A stretch of 64,000 bases of DNA. It comes from Bdellovibrionia bacterium (GTDB lineage Bacteria > Bdellovibrionota > Bdellovibrionia > Bdellovibrionales > JAGQZY01). Made by a program: the position numbers and the translations under genes. Shown in pieces: positions 37,577 through 61,388 of the stretch (its first letter is position 1; every line of letters begins with the position of its first letter). Where the stretch lies: positions 641,758 through 705,757 of the forward strand of contig JAUICP010000003.1 in NCBI GenBank assembly GCA_030427805.1, read 5' to 3'. Below the pieces are notes generated by a model, which did not search any database, was not told the origin of the DNA, and saw only the letters and a program-made list of their open reading frames with translations.

Positions 37577-37652
37577 TGGGGTATCGCCAAGTTGGTAAGG
37601 CATCAGATTTTGATTCTGACATGCGCAGGTTCGAGTCCTGCTACCCCATCCA
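37577..37652 (+). tRNA. tRNA-Gln (anticodon UUG)
   Basis: The acceptor stem TGGGGTA (37577-37583) pairs with TACCCCA (37642-37648). The discriminator and CCA end are encoded (37649-37652). The anticodon stem-loop ATCAGA-TTTTGAT-TCTGAC gives anticodon TTG, and the T arm is CAGGTTCGAGTCCTG. It is the likely integration site of the element: the integrase gene lies 160 bases away, pointing toward it, and foreign genes begin on its 3' side. Integration into the 3' end keeps the tRNA intact. Confidence 0.95.
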
Positions 37653-40387: not shown

Positions 40388-41152
40388 TTAACTCTTATCC
40401 TTTTGCACAAAGGGAAGATTCAAAGTGCTTGCCGATGAACTTTCTAAAACCACTGAGTCAGTAGCGTTCATGAGTTCATCAAAAGGCACCATGAATATTT
40501 TTGAACCCTTTTCTCCACGAGCCTTTTTATCTTCACGCTGCATTCTTTTCCCCAATGACTTGTTTGCAGTGACATAAAAAACAAAATTAATTCTCGGACT
40601 AAGATAAAAGTCTTTAAATAAACGCAAATAACGGGCTTTACTCTTCCAATAATGTTCATACTCAACAGCACCATTGAACAGAGTTCCGTTCACAAAAACG
40701 CTCATAAAACCGTCGCAATTAAGCCTTCTAAAATCCTCAAAGGGGTAATCGATGCCGCGACAAAGACCATTCTGAAGCTCATTCTCAGTCAGATAAGCCT
40801 CAAAGCCAGAAAGCTGCTGAAACTTATACCGAACATCTACTAAGCAAGCTTCATGCTCTCTGTTGCTTGATTTCACAGTGGTGTTGGACAATTCAAAGTC
40901 GTAGAGTAAGCGAGACTTCACTACCTTTTTTGACAAATAATAGTAACCCATTGGTCTATTGGTAAAAAGACAGTCGCGTTTAAGATAACCTCTATCTAGA
41001 AGCTTCTTCACCCTCCTACTCACAGCTTGGTTAGACACATCTCCAAAGACATCTCGTCTGATCTGACTCATTAAAGCTCCTCTGGTGGAAAACAAATAAT
41101 CAAAAAGACGAATGTCTCTTCTCGTTAACGCAAAACGTGTAGGCTTATTCAC
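40388..41152 (-). CDS. Replication-relaxation family protein
   Basis: I start this 254-residue protein at a GTG at 41152 because GGAGG precedes it by five bases; it overlaps the stop of the coupling ATPase gene. The longer frame to 41212 would lie mostly inside that gene. The N-terminal winged helix (FALTRRDIRLFDYLFSTRGALMSQIRRDVFG, then AVSRRVKKLLDRGYLKR) and the following domain resemble the Replic_Relax family found beside FtsK-like coupling proteins in mobile elements, thought to act at the transfer origin. No canonical relaxase is visible in the window, so it may recruit one encoded further right. Confidence 0.72.
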   Translation of the reverse strand: MNKPTRFALTRRDIRLFDYLFSTRGALMSQIRRDVFGDVSNQAVSRRVKKLLDRGYLKRDCLFTNRPMGYYYLSKKVVKSRLLYDFELSNTTVKSSNREHEACLVDVRYKFQQLSGFEAYLTENELQNGLCRGIDYPFEDFRRLNCDGFMSVFVNGTLFNGAVEYEHYWKSKARYLRLFKDFYLSPRINFVFYVTANKSLGKRMQREDKKARGEKGSKIFMVPFDELMNATDSVVLESSSASTLNLPFVQKDKS

Positions 41153-42647
41153 CTTTTCCTCCACTCTTATCAGACTCTTTATCAATGCTATTTTCTTGTT
41201 CATCAGTCTCATATTCAGTCTGAGTCACAAGATCTTGACGAGTTAGTTTATCTTCACCTTTGAAGCGGCCAGCTACAGTTTTTAGACGAGACTTAATCAC
41301 CTCAGTCTCCGCCAAAGGTGTTTGAACCTCATCTAAATCAACGCTGAATTTACTAATTGCACGCCCTCTAACAGTTGGTAGATCTTTTGCCTTTTTATTA
41401 CCAATGACAATGGCTGACCCCTGAACTGAAGCGACCTTGAAGCAAACACGCCCCTCAATATTCTCCTGAATGTGTGTACTCACTGTTTCTTTGGAGATTT
41501 TTTGAGTACCAAGAATCAAGTGGATACCAGCTGCTCTTGAAAGTTTTGCAATTTCATCGGTAACACCGACGGCTTTATCAGCTTCTTCTTTTTTAAAATC
41601 AGACACTTTTGATGGGGCATAAAGTAATGAACACTCATCCACTACAAGCAAGATGGGATCTTTTTTATGCTTTTTAAAATCAATAACTTCAGCCTCATTC
41701 TCTTCAAGAATTTTAAAGCGAGATTTCATCTCCGCCCTAATCTTTTTAAGAAGTGCGTAAGCTTCCGGAAGTTCTTTCACCACGACCGTATTAGGCAGGT
41801 CTTTAAAAGGTCTCATAGAGATTCCTTCCTTCAGATCAATGGCATAAACATGAAGATTTGGCGTGTTTTCCAACAGATTCAAAACCATCTGCCTAATAAA
41901 ATAAGACTTACCCATTCCTGTACTTCCGGCGACAAGCATGTGCGGAAGTTCAAATAGGTTCTGAGTGATGACTTTTCCGTGAGTCGACCCAACAACAAAA
42001 TCTCCTGGTTTGTTGGCGTTACCACAAACACTACTGTAGCTGACTTTTGTTGGAAGCGGCTTTTTAGAAAGATACAAATCCACATACTTGGGCTCGTCTT
42101 GTTCAAAAACACCCTCAACTTGTGAATTTACACAGGCCCTAATATGCCCACGCTTTTCCTCAAAGGTGTCTTTTGGAACCCCCATGGTGTCGATCTCAAT
42201 TCTTTCCCGAAAGGGACTAAGGCGCACTACATCTTTCACCACAGGGTACTCACCAATGGCATTTTTAAGACCAGCTTTCTTAAAAGCCTTCTCAATTGAA
42301 CGCATCTTCCTAATGCTTGGAAGACCAAACAGAACAATGAGACCTAACAAATACCAGAATAGCAAGAAACCAAAGCGCATCCACCAATTTGTCATTCCAA
42401 CATTGTAGACAAACTGTGTGGTCACAAGCTCTGGCCACTTCCAATTCAGCAACCACAAATGGGTATTGGTAAAAGACCATACAAAGATCAAAACAAAGGC
42501 TAAAACCAAATTGATTTTTGTTGTCTTTTTAATGGGTTCATTCAATGCACGAATAGAAAAGCAGAGGCAGTTTCCAAGAAACTTTAAAAAGTCCCAGATA
42601 CCGACCATAAACGCATGAAAATCAAAATCACTTTTCTTCTTACTCAT
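41145..42647 (-). CDS. FtsK/TraD-like coupling ATPase
   Basis: A 500-residue membrane ATPase that should link DNA substrate to the secretion channel. Two membrane helices (about 45-64 and 85-112) precede a FtsK-type motor with Walker A AGSTGMGKS near residue 238, Walker B ILLVVDECSLLY near 328 and the sensor LILGTQKI. The C-terminal tail is acidic. The size and two-helix N-terminus fit T4SS coupling proteins of Gram-negative elements. It lies two bases from the VirB10-like stop and overlaps the replication-relaxation gene. Confidence 0.85.
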   Translation of the reverse strand: MSKKKSDFDFHAFMVGIWDFLKFLGNCLCFSIRALNEPIKKTTKINLVLAFVLIFVWSFTNTHLWLLNWKWPELVTTQFVYNVGMTNWWMRFGFLLFWYLLGLIVLFGLPSIRKMRSIEKAFKKAGLKNAIGEYPVVKDVVRLSPFRERIEIDTMGVPKDTFEEKRGHIRACVNSQVEGVFEQDEPKYVDLYLSKKPLPTKVSYSSVCGNANKPGDFVVGSTHGKVITQNLFELPHMLVAGSTGMGKSYFIRQMVLNLLENTPNLHVYAIDLKEGISMRPFKDLPNTVVVKELPEAYALLKKIRAEMKSRFKILEENEAEVIDFKKHKKDPILLVVDECSLLYAPSKVSDFKKEEADKAVGVTDEIAKLSRAAGIHLILGTQKISKETVSTHIQENIEGRVCFKVASVQGSAIVIGNKKAKDLPTVRGRAISKFSVDLDEVQTPLAETEVIKSRLKTVAGRFKGEDKLTRQDLVTQTEYETDEQENSIDKESDKSGGKGE

Positions 42648-42648
42648 T

Positions 42649-43671
42649 TTAGCGAGTTTCTCCTTTAATAAATGTTTTAGTGAGGGTAACGATCAATTCC
42701 TTACCCTGATTGAGAGTCACATAAGCTGATTCACTTCTAGCTTCTTCAAGCTGAAAAGCTCCTTCAGTTTTTGCAAACTCAGATACACCATTGAGCATGG
42801 CGTTTTTTAAATTAGCTTTTTTAACAACATTAAGACCTTCACGGCCCAGAGCTTCACGTTCTTGAAGCACATCACTAGCCCCTGCCACAAAGCTAAAACC
42901 AAGAGTGGCTCCAGCCCTACTGCCAAATGCTGAGTGATAACTGCCAAGAAGCCCTGGAGAGAAGTCCTTGGCATCCACAGCGGAGGCTTCAACCTTAACT
43001 TCAGTCCCATCAGGGAGAACCCCTGTGTGAAAACTGATAAAAAGTCTCTTGCCTCGCCCTGGATAGCCGACTTGTCCTAAAAGAACAGTGTTTCTTGGTA
43101 GTCCCATGCGGTCTTTAAACTTTCCACCAAAAGGCAGAAGCACCCGAACAAACTTATCTGAATGCCTCGTATCCACCTGAGATAAGAGTTTTCCAATAAA
43201 GTTGGTCCCGATGGGTAGAGCCCTGTCACCTTGAGAGACGTTTCTTACAAGAACCTGTTTTCCAGCGTACTTGATTTTAACCCGTCCTTTTTTTTGACCT
43301 GGCTCTGGGTCACTACCTGATAACCGTTTGCCCTTCTTACTCCCAAGACCTTTAATATTTGGACCTTCTGAATCAGTGACGACCTCGCCGCCAGAATCAT
43401 CAATCATCTCCTCTTCAGTTGAGGCATCAAAAGCCGTGTTATAACTGCTCGAATTGTCCTCTGGTGAAAATAGAACACTACTGCCAATAGATAGAACTAA
43501 AAAAACAACACCAAGACCACCAATAAAAGTCCCAAGATTTAAAGTGTCTTTTCCTGAATACTTTTTAAAAAAGAAGGAATAAACCTTTTCTTTGGCGGCT
43601 TTCACCTTTCCCGTGGCTTTATGCCACAGGGAAGCAATCTTCTTCCAAACGCTTTTTAATCTAGAGATCAT
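42649..43671 (-). CDS. TraB/VirB10-like channel protein
   Basis: A 340-residue protein with a basic cytosolic N-terminus, one membrane helix (about 48-68), a disordered acidic/Lys-Gly linker and a C-terminal beta-barrel domain starting near residue 140. The motifs ALPIGTNFIGKLLSQVDTR and RNTVLLGQVGYPGRGKRLFISFHTGVLPDGTEV match the VirB10/TraB fold. Such proteins span from inner to outer membrane and gate the core complex. It overlaps the TraK-like gene by four bases and lies two bases from the coupling ATPase gene. Confidence 0.82.
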   Translation of the reverse strand: MISRLKSVWKKIASLWHKATGKVKAAKEKVYSFFFKKYSGKDTLNLGTFIGGLGVVFLVLSIGSSVLFSPEDNSSSYNTAFDASTEEEMIDDSGGEVVTDSEGPNIKGLGSKKGKRLSGSDPEPGQKKGRVKIKYAGKQVLVRNVSQGDRALPIGTNFIGKLLSQVDTRHSDKFVRVLLPFGGKFKDRMGLPRNTVLLGQVGYPGRGKRLFISFHTGVLPDGTEVKVEASAVDAKDFSPGLLGSYHSAFGSRAGATLGFSFVAGASDVLQEREALGREGLNVVKKANLKNAMLNGVSEFAKTEGAFQLEEARSESAYVTLNQGKELIVTLTKTFIKGETR

Positions 43672-44378
43672 TGGTAAGACCTCCGTAAAACAGTGCGATA
43701 ACCTTTTTTACCCTTAAAGCTTGCTCTGAAAGTAAAATCCACAGGCCTTTCTAGTTTTAAGAACATTCTAAACTTATAGTTTCGATACTTTTTAAACTTA
43801 GTCTCATCAGAAAAGACAACATCAAGAACTGTAAGATTTTTACCCGCACGTGTTGCCCAAAACTGTTCAGGCTTAGGATTAGACGCACTTTTAGGCAAAA
43901 TCAGACTACCATCCACCACATAGACATCGTTGAACTTGTGATAGAAGATTTTATTTAAGAAAACCTTCATATCACCCACATCAAACGAAACTGGATTAAA
44001 TTTACTGGTAGATTTTGGCTTTGCCTTTCTACTGAATGGAGCTTTCCAGTAAATTTTCACCAAGTCATCATAGGTGTTGCAACGACAAACTCTTAAGATA
44101 AAGCCAAAACGCCTATGCCCACTGTAAATAAACAAATTACTCGTCACTGTCGATAACGGCTGAATGGTCACATCATTGCCGGTGAACTCAATATTAAAAT
44201 AATTGGAGTTGCCACTAACAATTTTCTTCGGGCTATCAGCAAACTGCAAAACCGTAGAACGCCCCATAGCTAGAGTTATGACTTTCATGTCATTTGAATC
44301 CATTTCAATGGTTCTCACTTTTGCAATGGCCTGGGATGAGAAAAAACACACAAGAAGTAAAATTAGAGGTCTCATCAT
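43668..44378 (-). CDS. TraK/VirB9-like secretin-type protein
   Basis: A 236-residue exported protein with a signal peptide of about 19 residues (ending AIA). The mature part is all-beta, with the opening DMKVITLAMGRSTVLQFADSPKKIVSGNSNYFNIEF typical of the secretin-like N-domain in TraK and VirB9, then a C-terminal beta domain (FRMFLKLERPVDFTFRASF) that would contact the outer-membrane part of the channel. It lies between the TraE/VirB8-like and TraB/VirB10-like genes with four-base overlaps at each end, reproducing the E-K-B order of F-type systems. Confidence 0.8.
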   Translation of the reverse strand: MMRPLILLLVCFFSSQAIAKVRTIEMDSNDMKVITLAMGRSTVLQFADSPKKIVSGNSNYFNIEFTGNDVTIQPLSTVTSNLFIYSGHRRFGFILRVCRCNTYDDLVKIYWKAPFSRKAKPKSTSKFNPVSFDVGDMKVFLNKIFYHKFNDVYVVDGSLILPKSASNPKPEQFWATRAGKNLTVLDVVFSDETKFKKYRNYKFRMFLKLERPVDFTFRASFKGKKGYRTVLRRSYQ

Positions 44379-44968
44379 TTTTCAAACTCCGTAATTGAGT
44401 TGACGTAAAGGCCTTTCAGGTTCCACTTATTCGCTTTGTCTTTTAGAATCTCCAGGTGAACTTCTAATGGCTGAACGGCTTTGACCTTCTTACCGACTGA
44501 AACGACACGATCCATTTTCACTTCAACATGCTCATCTTTTAATTTGACTGACTGAACGACAATATCCTGAGAAATGGCGTTCTTCTTTACGAACTCCTTT
44601 GATTTCTCAAATTGACGGGTCATTTTCTTAAGAAGGCCGTAAGTGACAAACGGCGATACGTTTCTGGTTAGAGCTTCAATATTATAGTCTTTCCACTGAT
44701 ACCTTTGTAAAACAAAGTTCTTTGCTGCAAGCTCTACATCCTCTTCATTGATCTCAACACCTTTTCTTTCACCAATAAAGTACAGACGCTCTGACTCAGT
44801 AAGAGCCACAACAAGCGTGTCTTTATTTAAGAGATAAATGCAGACTCCAAGAAGAAGGAAGTTTGAAATCAACAACCCATAGATCACATATCTTAAATGC
44901 TTGATTAATAAATTAATTTTCACCCATTGGTTTACGGGCTCTAAACTCTTTGTTCCTAGTTTAATCAT
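44375..44968 (-). CDS. TraE/VirB8-like assembly protein
   Basis: A 197-residue protein with one N-terminal membrane helix (about residues 27-48, YVIYGLLISNFLLLGVCIYLL) and a periplasmic domain. The soluble part (AKNFVLQRYQWKDYNIEALTRNVSPFVTYGLLKK, then WNLKGLYVNSITEFEK) fits the NTF2-like fold of TraE/VirB8. The assignment also rests on gene order directly upstream of the TraK-like gene. Four-base overlaps join it to both neighbours. Confidence 0.75.
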   Translation of the reverse strand: MIKLGTKSLEPVNQWVKINLLIKHLRYVIYGLLISNFLLLGVCIYLLNKDTLVVALTESERLYFIGERKGVEINEEDVELAAKNFVLQRYQWKDYNIEALTRNVSPFVTYGLLKKMTRQFEKSKEFVKKNAISQDIVVQSVKLKDEHVEVKMDRVVSVGKKVKAVQPLEVHLEILKDKANKWNLKGLYVNSITEFEK

Positions 44969-45930
44969 TTTCTATTCTTCACCTCGTTAAATGATTTACT
45001 TCCAGACTGAAAATCACGATTCGATACCGCCCGTGATGCACTCATGGGTTTATCTCCTCGATTTCTTCTGGCTTCTTTAAAATTTTGAAACGCTCGCCCC
45101 GTAGACCTAAAACCGTAGCCTGCTGCTTGCTTTCCTTTGCCAGCAGCAAACTTTCCACCTTTTTTAAGTTGGTTCACAATCAGTCGTTGTGACGCCAAAG
45201 CTGGTGCTAATGCTAGACCTCCAGAGAAGGCTGCAAAGTCAGCAGACAAAAAGGCTTTTGTTGCGATGGGAATAAAAAGCATACTTGCGCCAATAAATAG
45301 GTTCATTACAATCAATAAAATTGAGTTGTAGTCACTTTCACTGGCTATAGGCGCATGGGTTGTCATTTTTAACAAAATCAAACCGAGCACCGCCCAGAGC
45401 ACCTTCCAGCACATGACCGTGCAAAGACTTCGATACAAACCCGTTGCAATCTTTGATGTTGATTGCGGAATATACGCCAAGATCATCAACGGTGAGATCA
45501 CAAAAAGAATCGCCCATGTGAAATGCACCAGTGCATCAGCAAAGAAGGCTCCTACATAAGCAAAGATGAATGAGATAAGAGCAAAGATCCAAATAATAGT
45601 CTCTTTAAACTTATACCAACTCACCTCTATACCTTGTATGAAGCCCCATGCTTCATTTAAAACCTCATTGATATGGGGTTTTGGACTGATGGTCTCAACA
45701 ATACCGTCACCCACGCTGGCTATCATGTGCATGACCTCTTCAAAACTCACTAAGAGTATGATGGAGATCGTTGCACGCTTAATAACCTTCATGGCATCAG
45801 GCTTGTCTTCCGGTAATTTAAAAAACTCTAAAATAATCATCAAGAGAGTCAGCGGAACAATGGCGAGCCAATAGACATCGACCAATCCCCCGCGAATTTC
45901 TCTACAAACTTCTGGCAGCCAATCGTACAT
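44965..45930 (-). CDS. VirB6-like polytopic channel protein
   Basis: A 321-residue protein with about six hydrophobic segments (including VYWLAIVPLTLLMIILEF, AFFADALVHFTWAILFVISPLMILAYI and ILLIVMNLFIGASMLFIPI). It ends in a basic, disordered cytosolic tail rich in Lys, Arg and Gly (QLKKGGKFAAGKGKQ onward). This layout, central membrane helices and a long polar tail, fits VirB6/TrbL proteins of the inner-membrane platform. The start shares its first base with the stop of the TrbJ-like gene upstream. Confidence 0.75.
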   Translation of the reverse strand: MYDWLPEVCREIRGGLVDVYWLAIVPLTLLMIILEFFKLPEDKPDAMKVIKRATISIILLVSFEEVMHMIASVGDGIVETISPKPHINEVLNEAWGFIQGIEVSWYKFKETIIWIFALISFIFAYVGAFFADALVHFTWAILFVISPLMILAYIPQSTSKIATGLYRSLCTVMCWKVLWAVLGLILLKMTTHAPIASESDYNSILLIVMNLFIGASMLFIPIATKAFLSADFAAFSGGLALAPALASQRLIVNQLKKGGKFAAGKGKQAAGYGFRSTGRAFQNFKEARRNRGDKPMSASRAVSNRDFQSGSKSFNEVKNRK

Positions 45931-46622
45931 TAGAACTTCGGTGTCCCAAATGTTGCGTTGAATGACTTAAAACTATTACCAAGATCACCAGTGATCTTTT
46001 GAAACTGGTAATTGGACTCTTTAGCTGTCTTATTATTCAAAGCGAGGGTTTCACTTTGAAGCTTAAGCATCTGTCCATTCACTTTCAAAAGCTGGTTTAA
46101 AGTATGAAGAATCGCCGCATTGGTCTGGACATTCACGCGAGCAGCCCCCTTTGGACTAGCCTGGCTTGCTTGCCTAGCAATACGGTTAGAGTTCCTCTCC
46201 TGGTTTTTGGCGTACTCTCTTAAAGAATTTGAAATCTTAATGCTCTCGGCCACAGTCTCATCATGAAGTTTTAAAAGAAGCTCCTCTTTTCCTTTGGGGA
46301 TTTCCCCATAGAGTCTCTCCACTTCATTCATGGCTCGTTTAAAAGATCTCAACTCCCCAAGAATCTTCTCATCTTCAATGGGAAAGTGCTCAAGTAAGCC
46401 AATAGCCTCGTTTAAACCGTCGTTAATGGATTTAATCATATCCTTGTGATGCTTGGCATTGTCATAGACCATCTTAAGCTGCTGATACTGCTTCACTGCT
46501 TGAGCGATCAGCTTAATAAGGTATGGGACCATGATTGCGGCATCACCGCCAAAAAAGGCACGGGATTTCACCGGACTAAAGCTAATAAAAAACGCACACA
46601 ATGGGATAACTAGAATCTTCAT
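45930..46622 (-). CDS. VirB5/TrbJ-like periplasmic protein
   Basis: A 230-residue exported helical protein with a signal peptide (about 1-21, ending SRA) then FFGGDAAIMVPYLIKLIAQAVKQYQQLKMVYDNAKHHKDMI. The predicted helices and Gln/Asn-rich C-terminal coiled coil are typical of TrbJ/VirB5 proteins, which cap or nucleate the pilus. It lies five bases downstream of the C-terminal ATPase fragment and directly upstream of the VirB6-like gene. Confidence 0.78.
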   Translation of the reverse strand: MKILVIPLCAFFISFSPVKSRAFFGGDAAIMVPYLIKLIAQAVKQYQQLKMVYDNAKHHKDMIKSINDGLNEAIGLLEHFPIEDEKILGELRSFKRAMNEVERLYGEIPKGKEELLLKLHDETVAESIKISNSLREYAKNQERNSNRIARQASQASPKGAARVNVQTNAAILHTLNQLLKVNGQMLKLQSETLALNNKTAKESNYQFQKITGDLGNSFKSFNATFGTPKF

Positions 46623-46627
46623 ATTTT

Positions 46628-47692
46628 TTAAAGACCTCCCTCTGTATTTATGTGTTCAACAATTTTTTCTAAAACTTCTAGATGAGAAAGCTTAGGATGC
46701 TTTCTCTTAAACTCTTCGATGACCGTTTTGTCTTTTGGGTCTGTGGTGCAGATCCAGTAAGACATTAGGTCGGGTTCTATTTTTAAAATGGCTCTTTGCT
46801 CATCTTGAATATAAAGATGCTCTGAAAACCGCCCCTTCTCTGAACGAAGAGATTTAACAGCATCAAGTTCAGCATCATTTAATGACAAGATTTCTTGAAA
46901 CTCATTCCAGTCCACTCCCCGCTGCTTTAAGATGATTCTAGACGGAGTATTCTGCATAATCGCAGCGGCAATTTCAGGATCAAACATAAAGTCTTTGATA
47001 CTTTGTGAGATCCCCCATATGCCGCCATAAAATTTGCGCATTGTACGGTAACACTCAATGATAAACTGAGCGGCACTCTCGTTTTGAAGAACCTTCCAGA
47101 TCTCATCAATACAGAGTAAATACCTCTGACTAGAATTTCTGGAAGCCTCATTCATGATGTGCTCAGTTAAAATGAGAAGCAGTACCCGTTGAAGATCTGG
47201 ATAAACATCAAGACCCTTCACCTCAATGGCAACAAGCGGCTTATCAAGATGAATGTTTGTCTTTCCATCAAGCAATCTTCCGTAGGCGGTGTCACCCGTC
47301 CACGAATACAAGATGTCAGAGTATTTCCTCATCTCTGAAAGCCGGTGGTTTTCTAAAATCTTCCTAAAATCAGTAAGTGTCGGCGAGCCCTCTTTATATT
47401 GATCGTAGGTGTCAGCAATGGCTTGCTCCAACAAAGCTTTTTCCCTTTTAGGAAGCCCTTTTGAATCATCTTCTTTACAGATAGACTCTATGACTCCCAA
47501 GAGAAGCTTCTTCTTTGTTGGGCTTACCTGCTTTTCACCCTTATTCAGTTCAAAGGCATTAAGCACTAAACCACTCTCTAAGTTTAGATCAATAAACTGG
47601 CCACCAAGAGCATCAACCATTCCACGGCTTGAGGCACCGTTGTCGATCCAGACCACTTTTGACTTTGAAACGCTTTCATCAACCACACTCAT
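46628..47692 (-). CDS. TraC/VirB4-like ATPase, C-terminal half (split gene)
   Basis: This 354-residue frame continues the ATPase domain whose P-loop ends the upstream frame. It opens with KVVWIDNGASSRGMVDALGGQFIDL, the strand and loop that normally follow Walker A in VirB4/TraC. It contains Walker B YLLCIDEIWKVL near residue 191 and GGIWGISQSIKDF with the sensor Gln. The ATG at 47692 overlaps the upstream TGA (ATGA) and has its own GGAG seven bases upstream. The run AAAAA before the stop also permits a -1 slip that would fuse the halves to about 819 residues, the usual family length. Confidence 0.85.
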   Translation of the reverse strand: MSVVDESVSKSKVVWIDNGASSRGMVDALGGQFIDLNLESGLVLNAFELNKGEKQVSPTKKKLLLGVIESICKEDDSKGLPKREKALLEQAIADTYDQYKEGSPTLTDFRKILENHRLSEMRKYSDILYSWTGDTAYGRLLDGKTNIHLDKPLVAIEVKGLDVYPDLQRVLLLILTEHIMNEASRNSSQRYLLCIDEIWKVLQNESAAQFIIECYRTMRKFYGGIWGISQSIKDFMFDPEIAAAIMQNTPSRIILKQRGVDWNEFQEILSLNDAELDAVKSLRSEKGRFSEHLYIQDEQRAILKIEPDLMSYWICTTDPKDKTVIEEFKRKHPKLSHLEVLEKIVEHINTEGGL

Positions 47693-49086
47693 TTTTGATC
47701 TCCAATAAACTGCAAAATAAGTTGGTTGATGGTAAATGACTTCCCACTTCCTGACGAACCGATGATAAAACCATTCCAGTTAGGGAGCTCCGGTGAAAAT
47801 GGATCAATTGAAACCAGTACATTATCCCTATTCGGAACAAGGCAAGTTGGCTTCGGATTCCCTCTCCAGTATGAAAAACAAGGAGCAAGATGGGAGAGGT
47901 TTGATGACTTCATTTTCTTAGGACGATTGGTTTTACAAAGCCCTGGTGTCGTCTTTAAAAAAGTATCAAAAGTTGCAAAAGTCTCTACCAACCCTTCAGA
48001 GTGGTTAAGCTTTTTAAAAGTTCTTAAAACAGTATTGCACTTTTCTTCTAACTCATTTTCTGTCTGTCCCCAGATAATGATATTAAGATCGGCTTCCACA
48101 ATTTTTTCTGAACTCTCAATAAGCTCTGATAGAAGCCCTTCAATCTGCCCAAGCTTTGACTCACTCTCTAGATCACTCACATTATTTTGACCACTGGCCA
48201 TGGAGTGAGTAAGCCTTCGCTTAAGCTGCAAGGAGCTATACTCTTTAGACTGATCGCAAACTCTCACCACTTGGCTGATCCAACAGTGAAAAGGTAAACC
48301 CAAAAGACCATTGATAAGACCAGAGGAGGTCTCATCGGGAAGTGTTTTTAGACTGATAGTTCTAAACTTATACTTTCCGATTTCAATGTGGTTTTTGGTG
48401 AGAGCTATGTCACTCAACAACACCTGTGATAGGAGCGAGCTTGGAGAAAAGACCCGTGGCCCTTTAAGTTTTGGAGCCTCGTGCTCTTCTGAGCGGTCCA
48501 GATTAAAATGCTCGTAAAGGAGCCTGAACCACTCTTTTTCACTTAAAGGTTTACCAAAAACACCGCAGTCTTTGAGCGACGACTCAAGTTGATTAACAGA
48601 CCGCTCAAAATCTTCATGGTGAACCCGAAACTCTGACTCCTCCACCTGGAGATACTCTTTTTCTTTTTGAAAAAGCTTCTGCTTCTTAAAAGCGTAAGGC
48701 CTTCCCTTTAGAAAAAGATAAATTTCTGGGTTAAAGAACTTTCCCTTAAGACAGTTATCTTTTAGATGCTTTTTCCTAGCATTTAAAATGATGTCATAAT
48801 TTGCAATGGGACAGCTTTCCGAAAGTCCAATATGCTCATTAACAACACCCTCAACTGTTGGTGTAAGTCGATAAAGAAACTGTAACGACATCCCCTCATC
48901 AAGACTTGTTACCAGATTCTCTAGCCTTCTTGTAAACTGACTCACCTCTTCATCAGTGGAACAAGAAATGTCTTTTCCACTAATTTTAAAGCCTGCCCCT
49001 AGCGAACCATCTCCAAAGACAAGCCTGTCTTCAAAAAAGTGCCAGAGGTTTAAAAACTCACCAATATTATCAGGACTCAACGACAA
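47689..49086 (-). CDS. TraC/VirB4-like ATPase, N-terminal half with Walker A (split gene)
   Basis: A 465-residue frame starting at a TTG at 49086 (AAAGGAT eight bases upstream) and overlapping the VirB3-like stop. It contains the N-terminal domain of TraC-type pilus ATPases (LWHFFEDRLVFGDGSLGAGFKISG opening, CFSYWRGNPKPTCLVPNRDNVLVSIDPFSPELPNWNGF near the end). It stops 15 residues after the P-loop GSSGSGKS at about 443-450. Ending a polypeptide between Walker A and Walker B is very unusual. The TGA is part of the ATGA junction with the next frame. Confidence 0.85.
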   Translation of the reverse strand: MSLSPDNIGEFLNLWHFFEDRLVFGDGSLGAGFKISGKDISCSTDEEVSQFTRRLENLVTSLDEGMSLQFLYRLTPTVEGVVNEHIGLSESCPIANYDIILNARKKHLKDNCLKGKFFNPEIYLFLKGRPYAFKKQKLFQKEKEYLQVEESEFRVHHEDFERSVNQLESSLKDCGVFGKPLSEKEWFRLLYEHFNLDRSEEHEAPKLKGPRVFSPSSLLSQVLLSDIALTKNHIEIGKYKFRTISLKTLPDETSSGLINGLLGLPFHCWISQVVRVCDQSKEYSSLQLKRRLTHSMASGQNNVSDLESESKLGQIEGLLSELIESSEKIVEADLNIIIWGQTENELEEKCNTVLRTFKKLNHSEGLVETFATFDTFLKTTPGLCKTNRPKKMKSSNLSHLAPCFSYWRGNPKPTCLVPNRDNVLVSIDPFSPELPNWNGFIIGSSGSGKSFTINQLILQFIGDQK

Positions 49087-49390
49087 TTTCTTTTATCCTT
49101 TCGTTTTCTTTGCTTAAATTGCTTCCAGCGCAGAACACCCCTGGAAAGATGGAGAAGCGAATCAAGTCTTGAAGGTAGCGATCAGGCTTTCCCCGCTTTC
49201 CCCAGTAGATGACTCCAGCTAAAAGGGCGGGGAGCCCGAAAACCATCACCCCCGCCATGTTTGTTTGCCCAAAGATCAGGTTCATAGTGGAGGCCAACGC
49301 CCCCACCCCGATCACATCAAATAACTCCATGCCAAAAAACTTGATCTGAGTGTCAAGGTTTCGGTGAACAATCGACCGATCAACACTCAT
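49070..49390 (-). CDS. TraL/VirB3-like membrane protein
   Basis: The ATG at 49390 overlaps the pilin stop (TAATG). The longer frame to 49462 would lie inside the pilin gene. The 106-residue protein opens MSVDRSIVHRNLDTQIKFFGMELFDV, the typical pre-helix region of TraL/VirB3. It has two adjacent membrane segments (IGVGALASTMNLIF, MAGVMVFGLPALLAGVIYW) and then the conserved GKPDRYLQDLIRF. VirB3-type proteins pair with the VirB4/TraC ATPase, whose gene follows with a 17-base overlap. Confidence 0.82.
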   Translation of the reverse strand: MSVDRSIVHRNLDTQIKFFGMELFDVIGVGALASTMNLIFGQTNMAGVMVFGLPALLAGVIYWGKRGKPDRYLQDLIRFSIFPGVFCAGSNLSKENERIKEIVVES

Positions 49391-49692
49391 TAGTTTAAAA
49401 CCCCTTGAAGCCAACCGATTATGTACGGCGCGAGAAATCCGATCCCACTCCCGATCAAGCAAAACCAGATTTTAGATTTTGCATTCTCATTACCCGTGGC
49501 AGCTAAGATTGCTGCGATCACAAGACCAAGAACACTCATCACTGGTAAAATAAATGTGGAAAACTTTTGCTGAAGGTTTTCCATCTTATTTTCAAACCCT
49601 GATTTCACCACACCTGCTTCTGCAAGTTCCGGCATCACGAATACAACCACCATTAAAACGCCAAACAATATTAACGACTCATACTTTCTCAT
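49390..49692 (-). CDS. TraA/VirB2-like pilin
   Basis: A 100-residue protein with a signal peptide (about residues 1-26, ending AEA) and two hydrophobic helices (FSTFILPVMSVLGLVIAAILAATG and IWFCLIGSGIGFLAPYIIGWL), the standard hairpin of conjugative pilins. The mature length of about 74 residues is usual. It precedes the TraL-like gene, as in F-type operons (A-L order), with overlapping stop and start. Confidence 0.82.
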   Translation of the reverse strand: MRKYESLILFGVLMVVVFVMPELAEAGVVKSGFENKMENLQQKFSTFILPVMSVLGLVIAAILAATGNENAKSKIWFCLIGSGIGFLAPYIIGWLQGVLN

Positions 49693-52068: not shown

Positions 52069-53745
52069 TTAGCACAACACCCCCTTCGGTATAACCTCAA
52101 TAGATCGTTCCTGACACCATTTTGTTAGGGCTGGACTGTTGTAATTGTTGGTCACTAAATAAGCCATGCTGCCAATTCCGAGGTCATCAATGAGCTGTTC
52201 TCCGGTTGTCGTATTAGGGCCGAGATCACTGTCAAAGATGAACAGGTGTTCTGAAAAGTCATCGTGGTTGTCGAACCATTCAGTAAACTCCTCTTGGTTT
52301 TTAAACGCCAAGAAGTTGGCTTCAGAGTTCTCTTTTTCAAGGAGTCTTTTCCACTTCCGATGGACACCTTTTTCATCATCAAGAAGCACTACTGATTTCG
52401 CCGACGGAATATCTATAGTTGGCAATTTCCAAAGGTCAAAACCTAATTCAAAGACTGTCTTACCTTCTTCACTACTCGCAAGATTAAAGTGTCCACCCCA
52501 CGATTCAATAAAACGCTTTCCATGATAAAGCCCGTAGCCGGTTCCATTTTCCTTTCCATCGGTGAAACCACGATCAAAAACATCTTTTTGGATTTCCTGC
52601 TTAATTCCTTTACCATCATCGGTAACCAAGACTTTTAGTATCTGATCTTCAATCTCAAGGTTGATCTCAATATTTTTAGCACCTGCTTCAATAGAGTTAT
52701 TCATCATATTGGAGAGCACGGCTCGAAGCTCTGGCCCCACAACTTCAATAAACGATTTTTTGGCAACACTTTTATAGCTGAGCTTGATCGCTGGTTTGTC
52801 TTTAGAGTTTTGAAGCTCAAGATTTTTATTCTCAACAGCAATTTCAAAAGCATTCGCCACGTTCACCTTGGTTTTCTTCTCATTCTCTTTTTCGAGATAT
52901 TCATAAAAAGTTTCATCGGAGGTGATAAGCTTAACCTTATCCACATCAGGGGTGTGATCAGCAATTTTTACCATCACAGCTTTAATATCCGTTGAGAGCT
53001 GCTCTATTCTACTCTTCTGCCTCTCGGATGAGAACTCACCTGATTTGATAACGTCTAGGGTTTGCTGAATTGATTTAATATTATGACCAATGCTCAAATT
53101 ATGTTCCAGAATAGCTCCAGCAACGGCTTGCTTTTCCTTTGACTGGGTGTGGTCTTCGATGTGTTTTTTAATTTTATTAAGCTCTCGTATTTCAAAGTCT
53201 TCATCGGAAGATAAGTCGTTTTCCAACGGAGCAAGAACATCTTTTGATAGGTCTCTTTGAATTCTGTAGATCGTAAAGAACACAATTCCAAGGAGTAGAA
53301 AGATAATACTGTTAATGATTACAAGAGCTGGAGTGATACTTAGATTGCTCAGGTAAAAATAGAACTTGTAATCAGTAAAACCAGAGGGCACCACCTCCAC
53401 GACGGACTGAAAACTTTTTGTGGTCGGCGGGTTTGGACAAGAGCCAAAGTTCAATGGCTGCTGCATCACCACCTGAGCCCCTTTACATGCTAATATTGAC
53501 TCAACGCCAAGCTCCTCAATGGCTAATTGGAATGAGGCCTCTAAAACTGGTCTGTTACCTTGCTCTATTCCGATAGTCGCAATTGTTTTAACAAGACTCT
53601 TAACCGACTTTGCTTGGTCGCTTACAAACTTATTGTGGGTGTATATGACAAAACCCACCTGAACCAAGGCAACCGACACTCCAACCACGAGGAGTGGGAG
53701 TTTCGTTTTCTTAAAAAACCACTGGCTCAAGCTGATCTTTTTCAT
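52069..53745 (-). CDS. Hybrid sensor histidine kinase with C-terminal receiver
   Basis: A 558-residue kinase with membrane helices near 17-36 and 138-160 flanking a periplasmic sensor domain of about 100 residues that has two cysteines. A dimerisation region contains IGHNIKSIQQTL (His221) and another His at 215, either of which could be phosphorylated. The ATPase domain is intact: NMMNNSIEAG (N box), VTDDGKGI (G1), GFTDGKENGTGYGLYHGKRF (G2). A receiver-like domain follows (VVLLDDE, FIFDSDLG with Asp near 505, and VIPKG with Lys near 554). It is the last gene of the operon led by a sigma-54 regulator and starts on the stop codon of the binding-protein gene. Confidence 0.88.
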   Translation of the reverse strand: MKKISLSQWFFKKTKLPLLVVGVSVALVQVGFVIYTHNKFVSDQAKSVKSLVKTIATIGIEQGNRPVLEASFQLAIEELGVESILACKGAQVVMQQPLNFGSCPNPPTTKSFQSVVEVVPSGFTDYKFYFYLSNLSITPALVIINSIIFLLLGIVFFTIYRIQRDLSKDVLAPLENDLSSDEDFEIRELNKIKKHIEDHTQSKEKQAVAGAILEHNLSIGHNIKSIQQTLDVIKSGEFSSERQKSRIEQLSTDIKAVMVKIADHTPDVDKVKLITSDETFYEYLEKENEKKTKVNVANAFEIAVENKNLELQNSKDKPAIKLSYKSVAKKSFIEVVGPELRAVLSNMMNNSIEAGAKNIEINLEIEDQILKVLVTDDGKGIKQEIQKDVFDRGFTDGKENGTGYGLYHGKRFIESWGGHFNLASSEEGKTVFELGFDLWKLPTIDIPSAKSVVLLDDEKGVHRKWKRLLEKENSEANFLAFKNQEEFTEWFDNHDDFSEHLFIFDSDLGPNTTTGEQLIDDLGIGSMAYLVTNNYNSPALTKWCQERSIEVIPKGVLC

Positions 53746-55274
53746 TAGCCACCGACAGGACGGAATGTAGTAAACCGTCCCCCTTCTCTGCTGAGGTAGT
53801 TTTTCTTAACTTGGATACGGTCATTTCTTAAAATCACCATATCTTTTAAGAACCCAATGTGGATAAACGGAACTTCTCTTAAAACCGCTTCAGAAACTTT
53901 TTTGTAGTGTGGATCAACCTTGTCAAAATCTAAAATCTTGCGCCCCTCTTCTAAAAGATCAGTAACTTTTTTTCTGTGGAGCATTGGTGAGCTGATCGCG
54001 CCTTTTAATCCGATGGCATGATAGATGCCATCGGGATCACCGCTAAAAACGCTTAGGTACATTGGCAGAACATCTGGCTCATACCCTTTGTAATACATTT
54101 GCAAAAGATCACGTCCAGGAACTTCCTTGGTTTTATCAGAGAGCTTTACTCCTTTTTTAATCAAATAATCATGTAACCACTTCGTTCCTTTTGTGTGTGC
54201 AAAATAAAGTGGATGTTTTTGAGTGGCTTTTACAAATGATTCGAGATGAGGCTTACCCTCAGAAATGATTTCATCGACTTTCTCTTTAGAAATATTACCT
54301 GCTTGAAGAGGAAGAAAAATCTGTGGCTCGATCTGGCTCTTCATCCGATCTTTTCTTGGTATGTCTTCACTGGTGAAGCCATCGAAAAACAGATATTGAA
54401 AAGCTTTTCTGTGGTTTGGGTTATTTAGCAGACGACCCTTTTGCCCATTTAAAACGAGTGTCATGTGACGGTTCTCAGTGCCTGAAACGCAACTAATATT
54501 TTTATCACCACAAGAATCAACCTGAGCCACTTCCGCAAAGGCATAGAGATCAATCTCACCTTTTTTTAGGGCCTCTCTAGATTTGTCGAACGGAACGACC
54601 TTCACATTAACTTTTTCATAATAGTAGTCATCAGGGTTATACTGATTTCTTGTCAGCATCACCTCTTCTTTATTGATACTATTAATCACATAAGGGCCGG
54701 TCCCGATGTATTTATTACCCTCCTTAATGAAGGCCGCCATTCGCGTTCCCCCTAGATGACTAAGAGCCATTCTAAAAGGTTTTTTGAAAGTAACTTTTAA
54801 GGTTTTATCATCGACAGCTTCAACACCGGAAACACCACCGCTCTTTTTATGATTTTCAAAGCCTTCAATCTTATAAAGAACATCAAGAAGGCTGTTATTG
54901 GCTGACTTTGAGTCGAGCTTTAAGCTGTGCTCCCAGGAGTTTTTGTAGTGTTTTGCAGTCAGAGCCACACCATTAGAGAACTTTCTGGAGGTGTCGATGG
55001 TAAAAGTGAAAACCTTTTTATCATCGCTCACTGTCCAGGACTTAGCCCCCATTCCATCAATAGTGCCGCTCTTACCTAAAATGACGAGTGGCTCAAACTG
55101 GTTGTGCATAAGAGCATCTGCATAAGCTGTGTGCTGAAGAGAAGGAACCAAATCGTTCCATTCTCCAGGGTAGCCAACTTTTAGAATCATCTCTTTTTTC
55201 TCCTGTGGTTGATTCTTGGTGCAAGCACCAAGACCAACTGCAATCATCAAAGATACAAATAAAACCTTAAACAT
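53745..55274 (-). CDS. OppA/DppA-family solute-binding lipoprotein
   Basis: A 509-residue lipoprotein with signal MFKVLFVSLMIAVGLGAC, lipidated Cys18. The body matches family 5 extracellular binding proteins, which usually bind peptides: LKVGYPGEWNDLVPSLQHT, NQFEPLVILGKSG, FTFTIDTSRKFSNGVALTAKHYKNSWEHSL, GTGPYVINSI. No permease or ABC ATPase gene is nearby. Its place between a radical SAM/small-protein pair and a sensor kinase therefore suggests that it presents a ligand to the kinase or handles the modified peptide. It shares its stop with the kinase start (TAATG). Confidence 0.88.
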   Translation of the reverse strand: MFKVLFVSLMIAVGLGACTKNQPQEKKEMILKVGYPGEWNDLVPSLQHTAYADALMHNQFEPLVILGKSGTIDGMGAKSWTVSDDKKVFTFTIDTSRKFSNGVALTAKHYKNSWEHSLKLDSKSANNSLLDVLYKIEGFENHKKSGGVSGVEAVDDKTLKVTFKKPFRMALSHLGGTRMAAFIKEGNKYIGTGPYVINSINKEEVMLTRNQYNPDDYYYEKVNVKVVPFDKSREALKKGEIDLYAFAEVAQVDSCGDKNISCVSGTENRHMTLVLNGQKGRLLNNPNHRKAFQYLFFDGFTSEDIPRKDRMKSQIEPQIFLPLQAGNISKEKVDEIISEGKPHLESFVKATQKHPLYFAHTKGTKWLHDYLIKKGVKLSDKTKEVPGRDLLQMYYKGYEPDVLPMYLSVFSGDPDGIYHAIGLKGAISSPMLHRKKVTDLLEEGRKILDFDKVDPHYKKVSEAVLREVPFIHIGFLKDMVILRNDRIQVKKNYLSREGGRFTTFRPVGG

Positions 55275-55283
55275 CTTTCCCTC

Positions 55284-55634
55284 TTATTCTGGTGGAATAG
55301 CACTTAGAGCCTGACCGACACTTGAGGCTGTAACTGTTGGGCTATGAATATCACTGATGAACTCTTTTGTCAGACGGCTTCTATGACGGCTATACGGTTC
55401 TGTTGATAAGTCTTGAACATCAGAAACCTCATGACGATCAAGAAAGTCATAATACTTCTCTGGCATAGTGCCCTCATCAAGACGGCGCATCATCTCACCT
55501 TCATAATCGTAGTCTGTTGGCCCTGGGTCATTGCCCCCACCAAGCTTATTTGCAAAATCAGATGCAAATGCTACTGAGCTTATGGGCATAAGTGACAACA
55601 TCCCTAATATTTTTCTTCTTGTTTGCTTTTTCAT
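55284..55634 (-). CDS. Small protein with Tat-like signal, candidate substrate of the radical SAM enzyme
   Basis: A 116-residue protein whose N-terminus TRRKILGMLSLMPISSVAFA has the twin-arginine pattern (RR-x-I-L) and an AFA cleavage site. The mature part is polar and low in hydrophobic core residues: a Gly/Pro/Asp segment (GGGNDPGPTDYDYEGE), then MPEKYYDFLDRHEVSDVQDL and a C-terminus ending AIPPE. The lack of a recognisable fold and the tight coupling to the upstream radical SAM gene (ATGA overlap, GGGGAGG six bases before the ATG) suggest it is modified by that enzyme and then exported folded. That role is inference. Confidence 0.6.
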   Translation of the reverse strand: MKKQTRRKILGMLSLMPISSVAFASDFANKLGGGNDPGPTDYDYEGEMMRRLDEGTMPEKYYDFLDRHEVSDVQDLSTEPYSRHRSRLTKEFISDIHSPTVTASSVGQALSAIPPE

Positions 55635-56710
55635 GCAATCCTCCCCTTTTGTAAGGCCACTGGTTCAATCCAACAACCTTGGTCTTTTTCTAAAAAACTA
55701 CCCGTGAGAGCAAAGCTGATATTTCTATCGCCTCCACACCTTGAGTAGTACATACAATCACCACAGCCTTTGATATTTCCTTTCCTTAAATTTTTCAGAA
55801 CTGGGTGATTAAAAAATAAATTCTTAAGTCCATCTTTTAAGACATTACCGACTGTGTAATCAGCTCGGCTCGAAACCTTCATGTTGCCTTTGTAGTCGAT
55901 AACGATTCCCTGAAAGCCCATTCTCCCGTTGTGACCCAAGGTTGGATCAATCAAATGAAAGAGTGGACTGCTGGTAGCTGTTTTTACACCTGTCTTTTTT
56001 GATGTGTTTAAAATTGAAATCAGAGCGTCTCGAAGCTCTGTCCCATAGAGTGAGTCATCCTTACCACTTTTTTGAAGCTCCTCACCATAGCCTTGTGGGA
56101 TAAATCTTGTAAAATTCATCGAATCAAGACCATGCTTTTTTGCCATATCAAAAAACTCTGGAATCCACTGCGCTGTATTTTTTGACAGGATGCCCAAGAT
56201 GTTTGTTTTCATCCCGTATCTTTTGGCAAGCTTAGCTCCCCTAATGGCTTTATCAAAGTTACCCTCACCGCGAACGGCATCGTGCCTTCTTGCATCAGGT
56301 CCATCAATTGAAATCTGAAACTCCACTTCATATTGAGAGAGCATCTCTAAAAGCTTATCATTAAGTTTCACTCCGTTTGTGAGAATCACAAACTTTGGAG
56401 TCTTCCAAAGCTCATTCGCTCTTTTTAAAATTGAATAGAGATAAGGGCTGATTGTCGGCTCCCCACCACAAAGAAGAATACTTGGCTTCATTTTTAGCTC
56501 ATCAAGCATTGCTTTGTACTGATCTAAAACCTCAAACCAACCGTTAAGATCAAGAGCTCCCGTATTTTTATGATTTGAGTGATAACAATGAGTGCAACGA
56601 AGATTGCAAGCATTGGTAATATCAAGCTGGATGGACATGGTTTCTTGCCCACCGATGGCTTTTACAGCCTTTGTTAAAAAATAATCCTCAAACTTTTTAA
56701 TCAACCTCAT
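55631..56710 (-). CDS. Radical SAM/SPASM-domain enzyme
   Basis: A 359-residue enzyme with the radical SAM cluster motif CNLRCTHC (Cys35, Cys39, Cys42), the GGEPT motif near residue 92, and an SPASM-type C-terminus (CGDCMYYSRCGGDRN, then a last Cys in DQGCW) that binds auxiliary clusters. SPASM enzymes typically modify peptides or proteins, for example as RiPP maturases or sulphatase activators. The only likely substrate encoded nearby is the 116-residue Tat-type protein. It overlaps the genes on both sides by four bases, so stoichiometry is tightly coupled. Confidence 0.88.
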   Translation of the reverse strand: MRLIKKFEDYFLTKAVKAIGGQETMSIQLDITNACNLRCTHCYHSNHKNTGALDLNGWFEVLDQYKAMLDELKMKPSILLCGGEPTISPYLYSILKRANELWKTPKFVILTNGVKLNDKLLEMLSQYEVEFQISIDGPDARRHDAVRGEGNFDKAIRGAKLAKRYGMKTNILGILSKNTAQWIPEFFDMAKKHGLDSMNFTRFIPQGYGEELQKSGKDDSLYGTELRDALISILNTSKKTGVKTATSSPLFHLIDPTLGHNGRMGFQGIVIDYKGNMKVSSRADYTVGNVLKDGLKNLFFNHPVLKNLRKGNIKGCGDCMYYSRCGGDRNISFALTGSFLEKDQGCWIEPVALQKGRIA

Positions 56711-58122
56711 GACACAGCTCCAGCATGAAGTTTATAGCCCCACTCAGAGAGTTTTCTTTGAAGTGAGGAGTTTGGAATAGAAAGAGCTTTTGAAGCCGCC
56801 CTTAGAGATGAAAAAGATCTTACTTTTGAAATCAAAAATTCTTTTTCTCTCTCTTCAAACTCTTTTGCTAAGAGATCTTTGAACTGCGGGTAAGATAGAT
56901 TGTTGGCTTTACTTTTATCAAAGACTTTTGGATCAAGATGTTGAGGCTTGATTTCTTCCTCACTCGTTGAAATCAAGAGCCTTCCGATCATGTTTTCAAG
57001 CTCTCTGATGTTTCCAGACCACTCATAGGCTTTTAGGTACTGCAATGTTTTATACATCATCTTTTTATTTCGCCCAGCAATATGCATTTCCATGAAGTGA
57101 GTGACAAGTGGCGAGATGTCTTCTGTCCTTTCTCTTAAGGCTGGTACATTGATTGGGATGTGATTAAGCCTATAAAAGAGATCCTCTCTAAATTCTTTTG
57201 ATTCAATTTTGGCTTCAAGATCCACATGGGTTGCAGCAATCACTCTCACATCAACGGGCACTGGTTTATTTGATCCAACAGGCTCAATCACTTTTTCTTG
57301 TAAAACTCTTAGGAGTTTTGCCTGAAGGTCCGTTCTCATCTCACCAATTTCATCAAGAAAAATTGTTCCACCAGTAGCCGCCTGAAACTTTCCAAGTCTT
57401 TTTCTGTCAGCTCCGGTGAAGGCACCCTTTTCATGACCAAAGAGTTCTGATTCTAAAAGCTCTGCTGGAATGGCTGCACAGTTGATACTGACAAATGGTT
57501 TATTTTTTCTAGAGGAGTGGTCTTTAACAGCTTTTGCAATAAGCTCTTTCCCTGTGCCTGACTCTCCACGGATAAGAACCGTTGATCTATCCCCACCATT
57601 CTCTGAAAGGGTTAAAATCTTTTTAGCGATATGAGCCATTGGTGTGGACCAACCCACCATTCCAATTTTTTGAATCCATACCGAGTTATCAAGATGCTTT
57701 TGGTTTACGTTTTGAGTTTTGGTGACAACACGGCTTAGTTCATCAAACTTCACACAGTTGGCTCTGATTTTTTTAATGATCTCATCAAAGGGCTCATCTT
57801 TTTTAATAAACCCACTCACCCCTGCATTGATACAGGCCACGGGAACCTCTTGGGTCATGTCGCCCGTGCAGATCAAAACTAGAAGCTTTGGATTGATTTT
57901 TAAGACTTCTTTAGCAACATCCACCCCATTGAGTTCCTGACCCTCAAAGCTGTAATCAAGAACAAGGACGGCATAATCAAAGGGATTCTTTTGAACGAGC
58001 CTGATGACCTCAGAGGCCTCACTTGTGAATACCGGCTCAATATCCAAGTGGACGCCAAGCTTGTCCCTAAAGTTGTCTAGAACGCTATTTTGATCGTCTG
58101 CGATCAGGATCTTGTAATTCAT
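56707..58122 (-). CDS. Sigma-54-dependent response regulator (NtrC family)
   Basis: The ATG at 58122 follows GGGAGGGAGCC. The frame extending to 58182 has no ribosome site and would cross the promoter. The 471-residue protein has a receiver (IADDQN, phosphoacceptor Asp56 in VLDYSFEG, Lys in FIKKDEP). Its AAA+ domain has Walker A GESGTGKE near 187-194 and the intact GAFTGA loop near 232, required to contact sigma-54. A C-terminal Fis-type HTH follows (LRAASKALSIPNSSLQRKLSEWGY). It leads a five-gene operon and is likely phosphorylated by the kinase at the end of it. The TGTCCCA palindromes are its best candidate sites. Confidence 0.95.
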   Translation of the reverse strand: MNYKILIADDQNSVLDNFRDKLGVHLDIEPVFTSEASEVIRLVQKNPFDYAVLVLDYSFEGQELNGVDVAKEVLKINPKLLVLICTGDMTQEVPVACINAGVSGFIKKDEPFDEIIKKIRANCVKFDELSRVVTKTQNVNQKHLDNSVWIQKIGMVGWSTPMAHIAKKILTLSENGGDRSTVLIRGESGTGKELIAKAVKDHSSRKNKPFVSINCAAIPAELLESELFGHEKGAFTGADRKRLGKFQAATGGTIFLDEIGEMRTDLQAKLLRVLQEKVIEPVGSNKPVPVDVRVIAATHVDLEAKIESKEFREDLFYRLNHIPINVPALRERTEDISPLVTHFMEMHIAGRNKKMMYKTLQYLKAYEWSGNIRELENMIGRLLISTSEEEIKPQHLDPKVFDKSKANNLSYPQFKDLLAKEFEEREKEFLISKVRSFSSLRAASKALSIPNSSLQRKLSEWGYKLHAGAVS

Positions 58123-58192
58123 CTGGCTCCCTCCCTTTTTAAAAGCCTTCAAAAGCAGCTCTATCCGCCCGCCCGTCCACATCTCGGACTAG

Positions 58193-60374: not shown

Positions 60375-60430
60375 ATTTTCTTAGAGCGACGGGTGCTTAA
60401 AATATAAGCTGTTTGGTTTTTCACCAAAAA

Positions 60431-60448
60431 TGTCCCAGAAGTGGGTCG
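60431..60448. promoter_or_regulatory. 18-bp palindrome, copy 5
   Basis: TGTCCCA-GAAG-TGGGTCG. One base departs from the consensus. It is 56 bases upstream of the start at 60504 and probably lies at the promoter of the three-gene beta-lactamase unit. Confidence 0.7.
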
Positions 60449-60503
60449 TTTGCCCCAAGTATTATTCATTGAAGCTTATCACATTAGTGGCTAAACTTCG
60501 TGC

Positions 60504-61388
60504 ATGTTGAAAGAGGCAAAACTCGAAATCAAATTTGAAATTACCAACCCCTGGAACAATTATGCTTATTGGGACTCTCAAATACATACGGCCCGAAATG
60601 GCCACAGTGGTCTTTGGTTTGAAGTAGTTGAGGCCAATGTTTCTTTTGAAGTAAACAATAACATCTACTCTGAGGAAAGTTTTCCAATACTTGAATTTCT
60701 CGCCTCTGCGAGTAAATGGATAGAACAACCAAGCCAAAGATTTGATTTTTTCCCATCAGGCTATGATGAAAAACATCCTTTAATCTCATTTAGACAAAAT
60801 GATCAAATAATATCATTAAGCGGACAACTCTTCGGTGATAGTTCTGAAAACACCTCCCCTAAAGCTCTTCAAGAAAATCTCGACAGTCTTTACAATTCTT
60901 TAAGACTTTCGTGGAAAAAACTAAAAGGCGATGACATCTCAACCATGTCTGACAACCTTCTAGTATATAAAGAAAATCTGGTCTCTATTAATGCAATCAA
61001 CTTTGCAAACCTACTAACCCCTGGAAATTTTCAAGAGGCAGAAAAATGGCTTTCCCCCAGCTGCACCTATCAATACAAAGACTCCATTCTCAGAGGTGAG
61101 GAAATCATTAAAAGTTTTTCGGACAACCATGAAGGCGCTGTCAAAAAACTTGATGGAATCACTTACATTGATGGAACCGTTGAAAAAATTAATGGCAACT
61201 CCGTTTTTGTGATTATTAAAGACAAGATTTCTACCAAAGGCGAATCTTTTATTTACACAGATAGACTAGTCATCACTTGTAACGATTCAATCGGACACTC
61301 ATCCATAGAAAAAATTAAACACTCCCCAATTAAAGGGGAACGAGAAAAACTTTTAGAGTTTTTTCAAACTATGGGAGTTGACTGGTGA
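60504..61388 (+). CDS. Two-domain cytosolic protein with SnoaL/NTF2-like C-terminus
   Basis: A 294-residue protein without signal peptide or membrane helix. The N-terminal half (LEIKFEITNPWNNYAYWDSQIHTARNGHSGLWFEV, and SFRQNDQIISLSGQLFG) is beta-rich and resembles small proteins often seen in immunity or toxin loci; I cannot name a family. The C-terminal half (INFANLLTPGNFQEAEKWLSPSCTYQYKDSILRGEEIIKSF onward) has the pattern of an NTF2/SnoaL cone. It overlaps the beta-lactamase-like gene by four bases (GTGA) and stands first in its operon, behind palindrome copy 5. Confidence 0.6.
   Translation: MLKEAKLEIKFEITNPWNNYAYWDSQIHTARNGHSGLWFEVVEANVSFEVNNNIYSEESFPILEFLASASKWIEQPSQRFDFFPSGYDEKHPLISFRQNDQIISLSGQLFGDSSENTSPKALQENLDSLYNSLRLSWKKLKGDDISTMSDNLLVYKENLVSINAINFANLLTPGNFQEAEKWLSPSCTYQYKDSILRGEEIIKSFSDNHEGAVKKLDGITYIDGTVEKINGNSVFVIIKDKISTKGESFIYTDRLVITCNDSIGHSSIEKIKHSPIKGEREKLLEFFQTMGVDW

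Follow-up and report, generated by a model that had tools for sequence, protein, structure and literature searches.

Among the ATPases of type IV secretion, VirB4 is the best conserved, and besides acting as an ATPase, VirB4/TrwK is a structural part of the inner-membrane complex. The proteins of this group (VirB4, TraC, TrwK, and TrbE; PF11130 with PF19044, TIGR02746, and TIGR00929) consist of one chain of about 800 residues. Here we describe a locus from a Bdellovibrionia bacterium with the same domain order, the same Walker motifs, and the same operon position, but in which the ATPase is encoded as two polypeptides, with the cut falling after Walker A and before Walker B. In the literature that we searched, which excluded most subscription journals, we found no precedent for a split VirB4, whether under that name, as trbEa/trbEb, or as gene fission. 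We think it probable that the pair arose by an ancient fission and that the two chains are translated together and reassemble as one VirB4 protomer.

Within the window (the whole 64-kb stretch of DNA that we analyzed), the TraC/VirB4-type ATPase is encoded by two overlapping frames on the minus strand, an N-chain of 465 amino acids and a C-chain of 354 amino acids. The N-chain starts with TTG, and it ends as GSSGSGKS-FTINQLILQFIGDQK-stop, 15 residues past Walker A. The C-chain starts with ATG and has the N-terminal sequence MSVVDESVSKSKVVWIDNG. A first-pass annotation of this DNA had reported a split between Walker A and Walker B, an ATGA overlap, a GGAG seven bases before the internal ATG, and an operon that is otherwise intact. 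All of these hold: both frames lie on the minus strand at the expected coordinates, the overlap and the motif are present, and the type IV secretion genes around the split ATPase are intact. The features of the locus are:

49390..49692, minus strand: VirB2/TrbC-like pilin gene (PF04956, E=2e-9), 77-79% identical in the split relatives
49070..49462, minus strand: VirB3-like gene (by position), overlapping the N-chain start; in the same order in the other three split loci, with 65-69% identity
47689..49086 (including the stop codon TGA), minus strand: N-chain, with the TraC/VirB4 N-terminal domain, the first strand of the ATPase core, Walker A, and the following helix
47737..47760, minus strand: Walker A, GSSGSGKS, N-chain residues 443-450 (from the translation)
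47700..47703, minus strand: GGAG Shine-Dalgarno-like motif in the 3' end of the N-chain, 7 nt before the C-chain ATG
47689..47692, minus strand: ATGA stop/start overlap (-4 nt) of N-chain and C-chain (from the sequence)
46628..47692, minus strand: C-chain, with the remaining VirB4/TraC ATPase core including Walker B, and the C-terminal part
47666..47692, minus strand: MSVVDESVS, the N-terminal tail that the C-chain has gained, about 9 residues without a counterpart in the nearest intact homologues
47102..47122, minus strand: Walker B, YLLCIDE, C-chain residues 191-197 (from the translation)
45930..46622, minus strand: VirB5-like gene (by position), directly downstream of the C-chain; 73-76% identical in the split relatives
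44965..45930, minus strand: gene for a VirB6-like (by position) membrane protein, 65-71% identical in the split relatives
42649..44968, minus strand: TraE/VirB8-like, VirB9-like, and VirB10/TrbI-like genes, in the same operon as the split ATPase

The ATPase follows VirB2 and VirB3, and the VirB2-, VirB3-, TraE/VirB8-, VirB9-, and VirB10-like genes are colinear in three split relatives and in one intact relative. At the coupling-protein position (41145-42647, minus strand) there is an ATPase that is FtsK/SpoIIIE/EccC-like, not VirD4-like; it is kept in all four split elements and in an intact relative. We found no relaxase (PF03432) in or near the 64-kb window. At one edge of the type IV secretion region, a tRNA-Gln gene (37577-37652, plus strand) adjoins a tyrosine-recombinase gene (PF00589; 37815-39104, minus strand), an arrangement typical of integrated conjugative elements. 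A search of the assembly for a second copy of the 3' end of tRNA-Gln, as an attachment repeat, found none. Beside the secretion genes (52069-58182, minus strand) are genes for a histidine kinase, a family-5 solute-binding protein, a radical SAM protein, and a sigma-54 response regulator; this set is conserved, and most of its members also lie beside the split locus in two of the relatives (G053 and G007). On the opposite strand (58581-62794, plus strand) are genes for an OLD-family ATPase/TOPRIM protein, a DUF7878 protein, and a penicillin-binding transpeptidase, the last two of which overlap each other.

Single models from Pfam and NCBIfam run consecutively over both chains. PF11130 (TraC_F_IV) matches N-chain residues 26-359 (E=5.2e-12, above the cut-off). 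PF19044 matches the N-chain with its profile positions 28-53 and the C-chain with positions 57-401 (E=4.5e-32 for the C-chain), and TIGR02746 (TraC) covers the N-chain up to position 453 and the C-chain from 459 (E=1.5e-51 for the C-chain). Both Walker A (in the N-chain) and Walker B (in the C-chain) of the TraG/VirB4 P-loop domain are present.

To find other instances we searched 99 related genomes, and then the order (141 genomes), the class (144), and the phylum (369). Among the 99 related genomes, three (G053, G007, and G004) have a C-half that is 83-85% identical to that of the window, all in short frames, and in each of them the split is at the same loop as in the window. Their N-chains end in ...FIGDQT-stop, ...FIGDQQ-stop, and ...FMGDQN-stop, and their C-chains begin with MSAHSQGFSKSKVVW, VKSDLQNDVSKSKVVW (from a GTG start), and MAKKKYSDSKSKVVW, respectively. 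A contig scan gave two of these three split relatives, from separate assemblies (Bdellovibrionales and Bdellovibrionia), as well as an intact relative at 54%. The searches of the order, class, and phylum (up to 369 genomes) turned up no further split at this site. The only known split members come from four genomes in two families, all within one order of the predatory-type Bdellovibrionota. Viral contigs searched with the C-chain and phages searched with the N-chain gave no match, and plasmids gave only distant TraC-like proteins, with under 60% identity.

One rival explanation is that the window contains an error of sequencing or assembly, in favor of which there is a five-base homopolymer at the junction. 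However, the same split is found in three other genomes that lack the homopolymer, and two of these are ~74% identical to each other in DNA. These three independent relatives exclude the point mutation or sequencing error that the first-pass annotation had offered as the dull alternative, and we give an error in the window a negligible probability.

The other homologues with enough contig around them each have one uninterrupted frame, about 800-840 residues long, and the sole exception is L014 (G003:C56). This is a TraC homologue with 48% identity that is broken upstream of Walker A, near locus position 1300, apparently by a single-base indel in a homopolymer; as it is from a draft assembly, this is probably an error or a recent defect. 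The indel lies at a different site, so we did not count L014 as a further split. Nor did we count G020 and G071, whose short frames merely end at contig ends. The genome of the window also encodes two uninterrupted TraC homologues, L002 and L003, of 830 and 834 residues, whose C-halves are 47-49% identical. The cell may therefore have other ATPases of this kind besides the split pair.

These intact homologues raise the idea that the split gene is a pseudogene in decay, carried by an element that is itself degenerating, with the work being done by the paralogues elsewhere. The evolution of the split genes speaks strongly against this. Across the four split members, synonymous divergence is near saturation (pS 0.69-0.79) while pN is 0.10-0.20, in both halves, which indicates that the N-chain and the C-chain are both under strong purifying selection. 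The N-chain is 465 codons long in every one of the four. No other protein of the operon is as conserved as the C-chain (the same 83-85%), and the whole operon is colinear and open at all four loci. Real breakage looks different, as in the single-base homopolymer indel of L014. We therefore consider a pseudogene very unlikely. In a maximum-likelihood tree of 53 homologues, the four split ones are monophyletic, with support of 100/100 and a long stem. Together with the selection on both chains, this implies that there was one fission, which predates the divergence of the four, and that both parts have been maintained since. Of the four genomes, G000 and G004 belong to one family (f1) and G007 and G053 to another (f4), and the gene tree pairs split members across the families, which hints, with modest support, at horizontal transfer.

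The bases at the junction are GATCAAAAATGAG in the window and GATCAGACATGAG, GATCAACAGTGAAAAG, and GACCAAAACTAATGG in the split relatives. The stop and start codons overlap in all four (ATGA, ATGA, GTGA, and TAATG, or -4, -4, -4, and -1 nt), and in none of the four does another in-frame start come before the overlapping one. A Shine-Dalgarno-like motif lies 7-10 nt upstream of it in each case. The predicted pairing with the anti-Shine-Dalgarno sequence is -6.4 kcal/mol in the window and ranges from -6.1 to -8.4 among the four, against a mean of -2.3 for intact homologues, and it ranks in the top 1.4-5.6% of all positions along the locus. Just 3 of 49 intact homologues, all from distant subclades, have pairing as strong as -6.1 at the matching position. 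The motif is encoded by Gly-Asp codons (GGAGAT-like) where the intact relatives have Gly-Gln; because it is partly dictated by conserved codons, the four junctions are not independent cases. The frames abut directly, with no split intein at the junction. The split proteins have about 9 extra residues around the cut, relative to their nearest intact homologues. The loop from GKS to the next strand varies from 17 to 25 residues among intact relatives, so it tolerates change.

The two overlap classes most often seen in coupled termination-reinitiation are -4 and -1 nt, and both are overrepresented among the subunits of heteromeric complexes (PMC10666635). Gene pairs that are coupled in this way have such overlaps and an upstream Shine-Dalgarno-like motif (PMC6728339, PMC10666635), as we see here, but those pairs encode two separate subunits, while here one gene is cut inside its catalytic domain. 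By analogy, translation of the two chains is probably coupled. A predicted hairpin at the start of the C-chain (47640-47740 in the window; also in the relatives L007 and L008) covers either the start codon or some of the Shine-Dalgarno-like motif. It could conceivably make translation of the C-chain dependent on ribosomes arriving from the N-chain.

Alternatively, programmed -1 frameshifting at the junction might yield a full-length VirB4 of about 819 residues, with the N-chain as a by-product. In all four split members the second frame is indeed at -1 to the first, and the run of five As that the first-pass annotation saw as permitting a -1 slip is present beside the stop in the window. Yet there is no in-frame canonical slippery heptamer (X-XXY-YYZ) where both frames are open, in the window or in any of the three relatives. 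The run of As is unique to the window: the relatives have CAGACATGA, CAACAGTGA, and CAAAACTAATG instead. The refuting condition named in the first-pass annotation, close relatives with a continuous frame and no such run, was informative on both counts, in that the relatives lack the run and are split nonetheless. Downstream of the junction, the RNA of the window has no structure above chance (z +1.75); in two split relatives z is -2.3 and -1.4, all for structures free of pseudoknots. What all four have preserved is a start codon and a Shine-Dalgarno-like motif. Given a run of As in the window alone and no heptamer in any copy, conserved programmed frameshifting is not supported, and there is just a small chance that frameshifting occurs in the window only. 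Overall, we view frameshifting as quite unlikely. The other idea in the first-pass annotation, an ATPase of two chains divided inside its nucleotide site, is the one that gains from the comparison, as four diverged genomes are split at the same site and both chains are under purifying selection.

What would each chain contribute? An AlphaFold model of the C-chain, of moderate confidence at best (mean pLDDT of 60), matches the VirB4 of Thermoanaerobacter (4ag5, chain 4ag5_C) with Z of 14.6 and rmsd of 3.8 over 220 aligned residues, and the alignment begins at model residue 9, just after the P-loop region. The same model matches TrwK in the R388 apparatus with Z of 8.6. The AlphaFold model of an intact relative (mean pLDDT of 52) was too poor to place the cut, so we relied on alignment to solved VirB4 structures instead. 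On this basis, the N-chain would supply the N-terminal domain, the first core strand, and the P-loop with its helix, and the C-chain would supply the rest. Neither chain alone has a complete ATP site. In the C-chain, the Asp196-Glu197 of Walker B, Gln230, and Arg258 are invariant across the aligned homologues.

Because VirB4 has a structural role as well as an ATPase role, it could be argued that the fission separated them: the N-chain would be a structural subunit without ATPase activity, and the C-chain would act on its own, perhaps as a regulator or by pairing with a different P-loop protein, of which the intact paralogues are examples. We doubt this strongly. The Walker A, Walker B, Gln, and Arg positions have all been kept, as have the order of the chains and their tight overlap, and without the strand and the P-loop from the N-chain, the sheet and the ATP site of the C-chain are incomplete.

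We favor instead a fission followed by reassembly, which might have proceeded as follows. A single-chain ancestor would have been cut once, in the length-variable loop that runs from the helix after the P-loop to the next strand of the RecA/HerA-like core. About 9 extra residues would then have arisen and provided the new chain ends, together with a Shine-Dalgarno motif just before the stop/start overlap. Ribosomes that finish the N-chain would reinitiate at once on the C-chain, so we propose that both chains are produced at the same place and in matched amounts. The chains would then join non-covalently to form one VirB4 protomer with a shared ATP site, to which the N-chain would contribute the P-loop, and the C-chain Walker B together with the sensor Gln and further residues. 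This protomer would be an active ATPase that serves in the transfer machine. A further thought is that the split site is a switch, so that the ATPase is active only where and when the C-chain joins an N-chain that is already docked in the inner-membrane complex. This would stop idle ATP hydrolysis by unassembled VirB4, but we think it unlikely.

A long-lived split between Walker A and Walker B would show that the motor core of VirB4 can be built from two chains, and assembly of its ATP site might depend on co-translation. The split VirB4 could also serve as a natural split-protein system for testing when VirB4 becomes active. There is a warning here as well, as automatic annotation may label such split genes as pseudogenes or frameshifts.

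Natural split genes whose products reassemble are known from other prokaryotes, including the A' and A'' subunits of archaeal RNA polymerase and the split genes of Nanoarchaeum equitans. As in our locus, one ancestral protein is present as two chains that have long been kept; the difference is that the cut described here passes through the nucleotide-binding site of a secretion motor. Another comparison is with the SMC/Rad50-type ATPases, in which a distant Walker A and Walker B meet when the protein folds. There, the two motifs belong to one chain and are joined by a coiled coil, whereas in the split VirB4 they are on separate chains.
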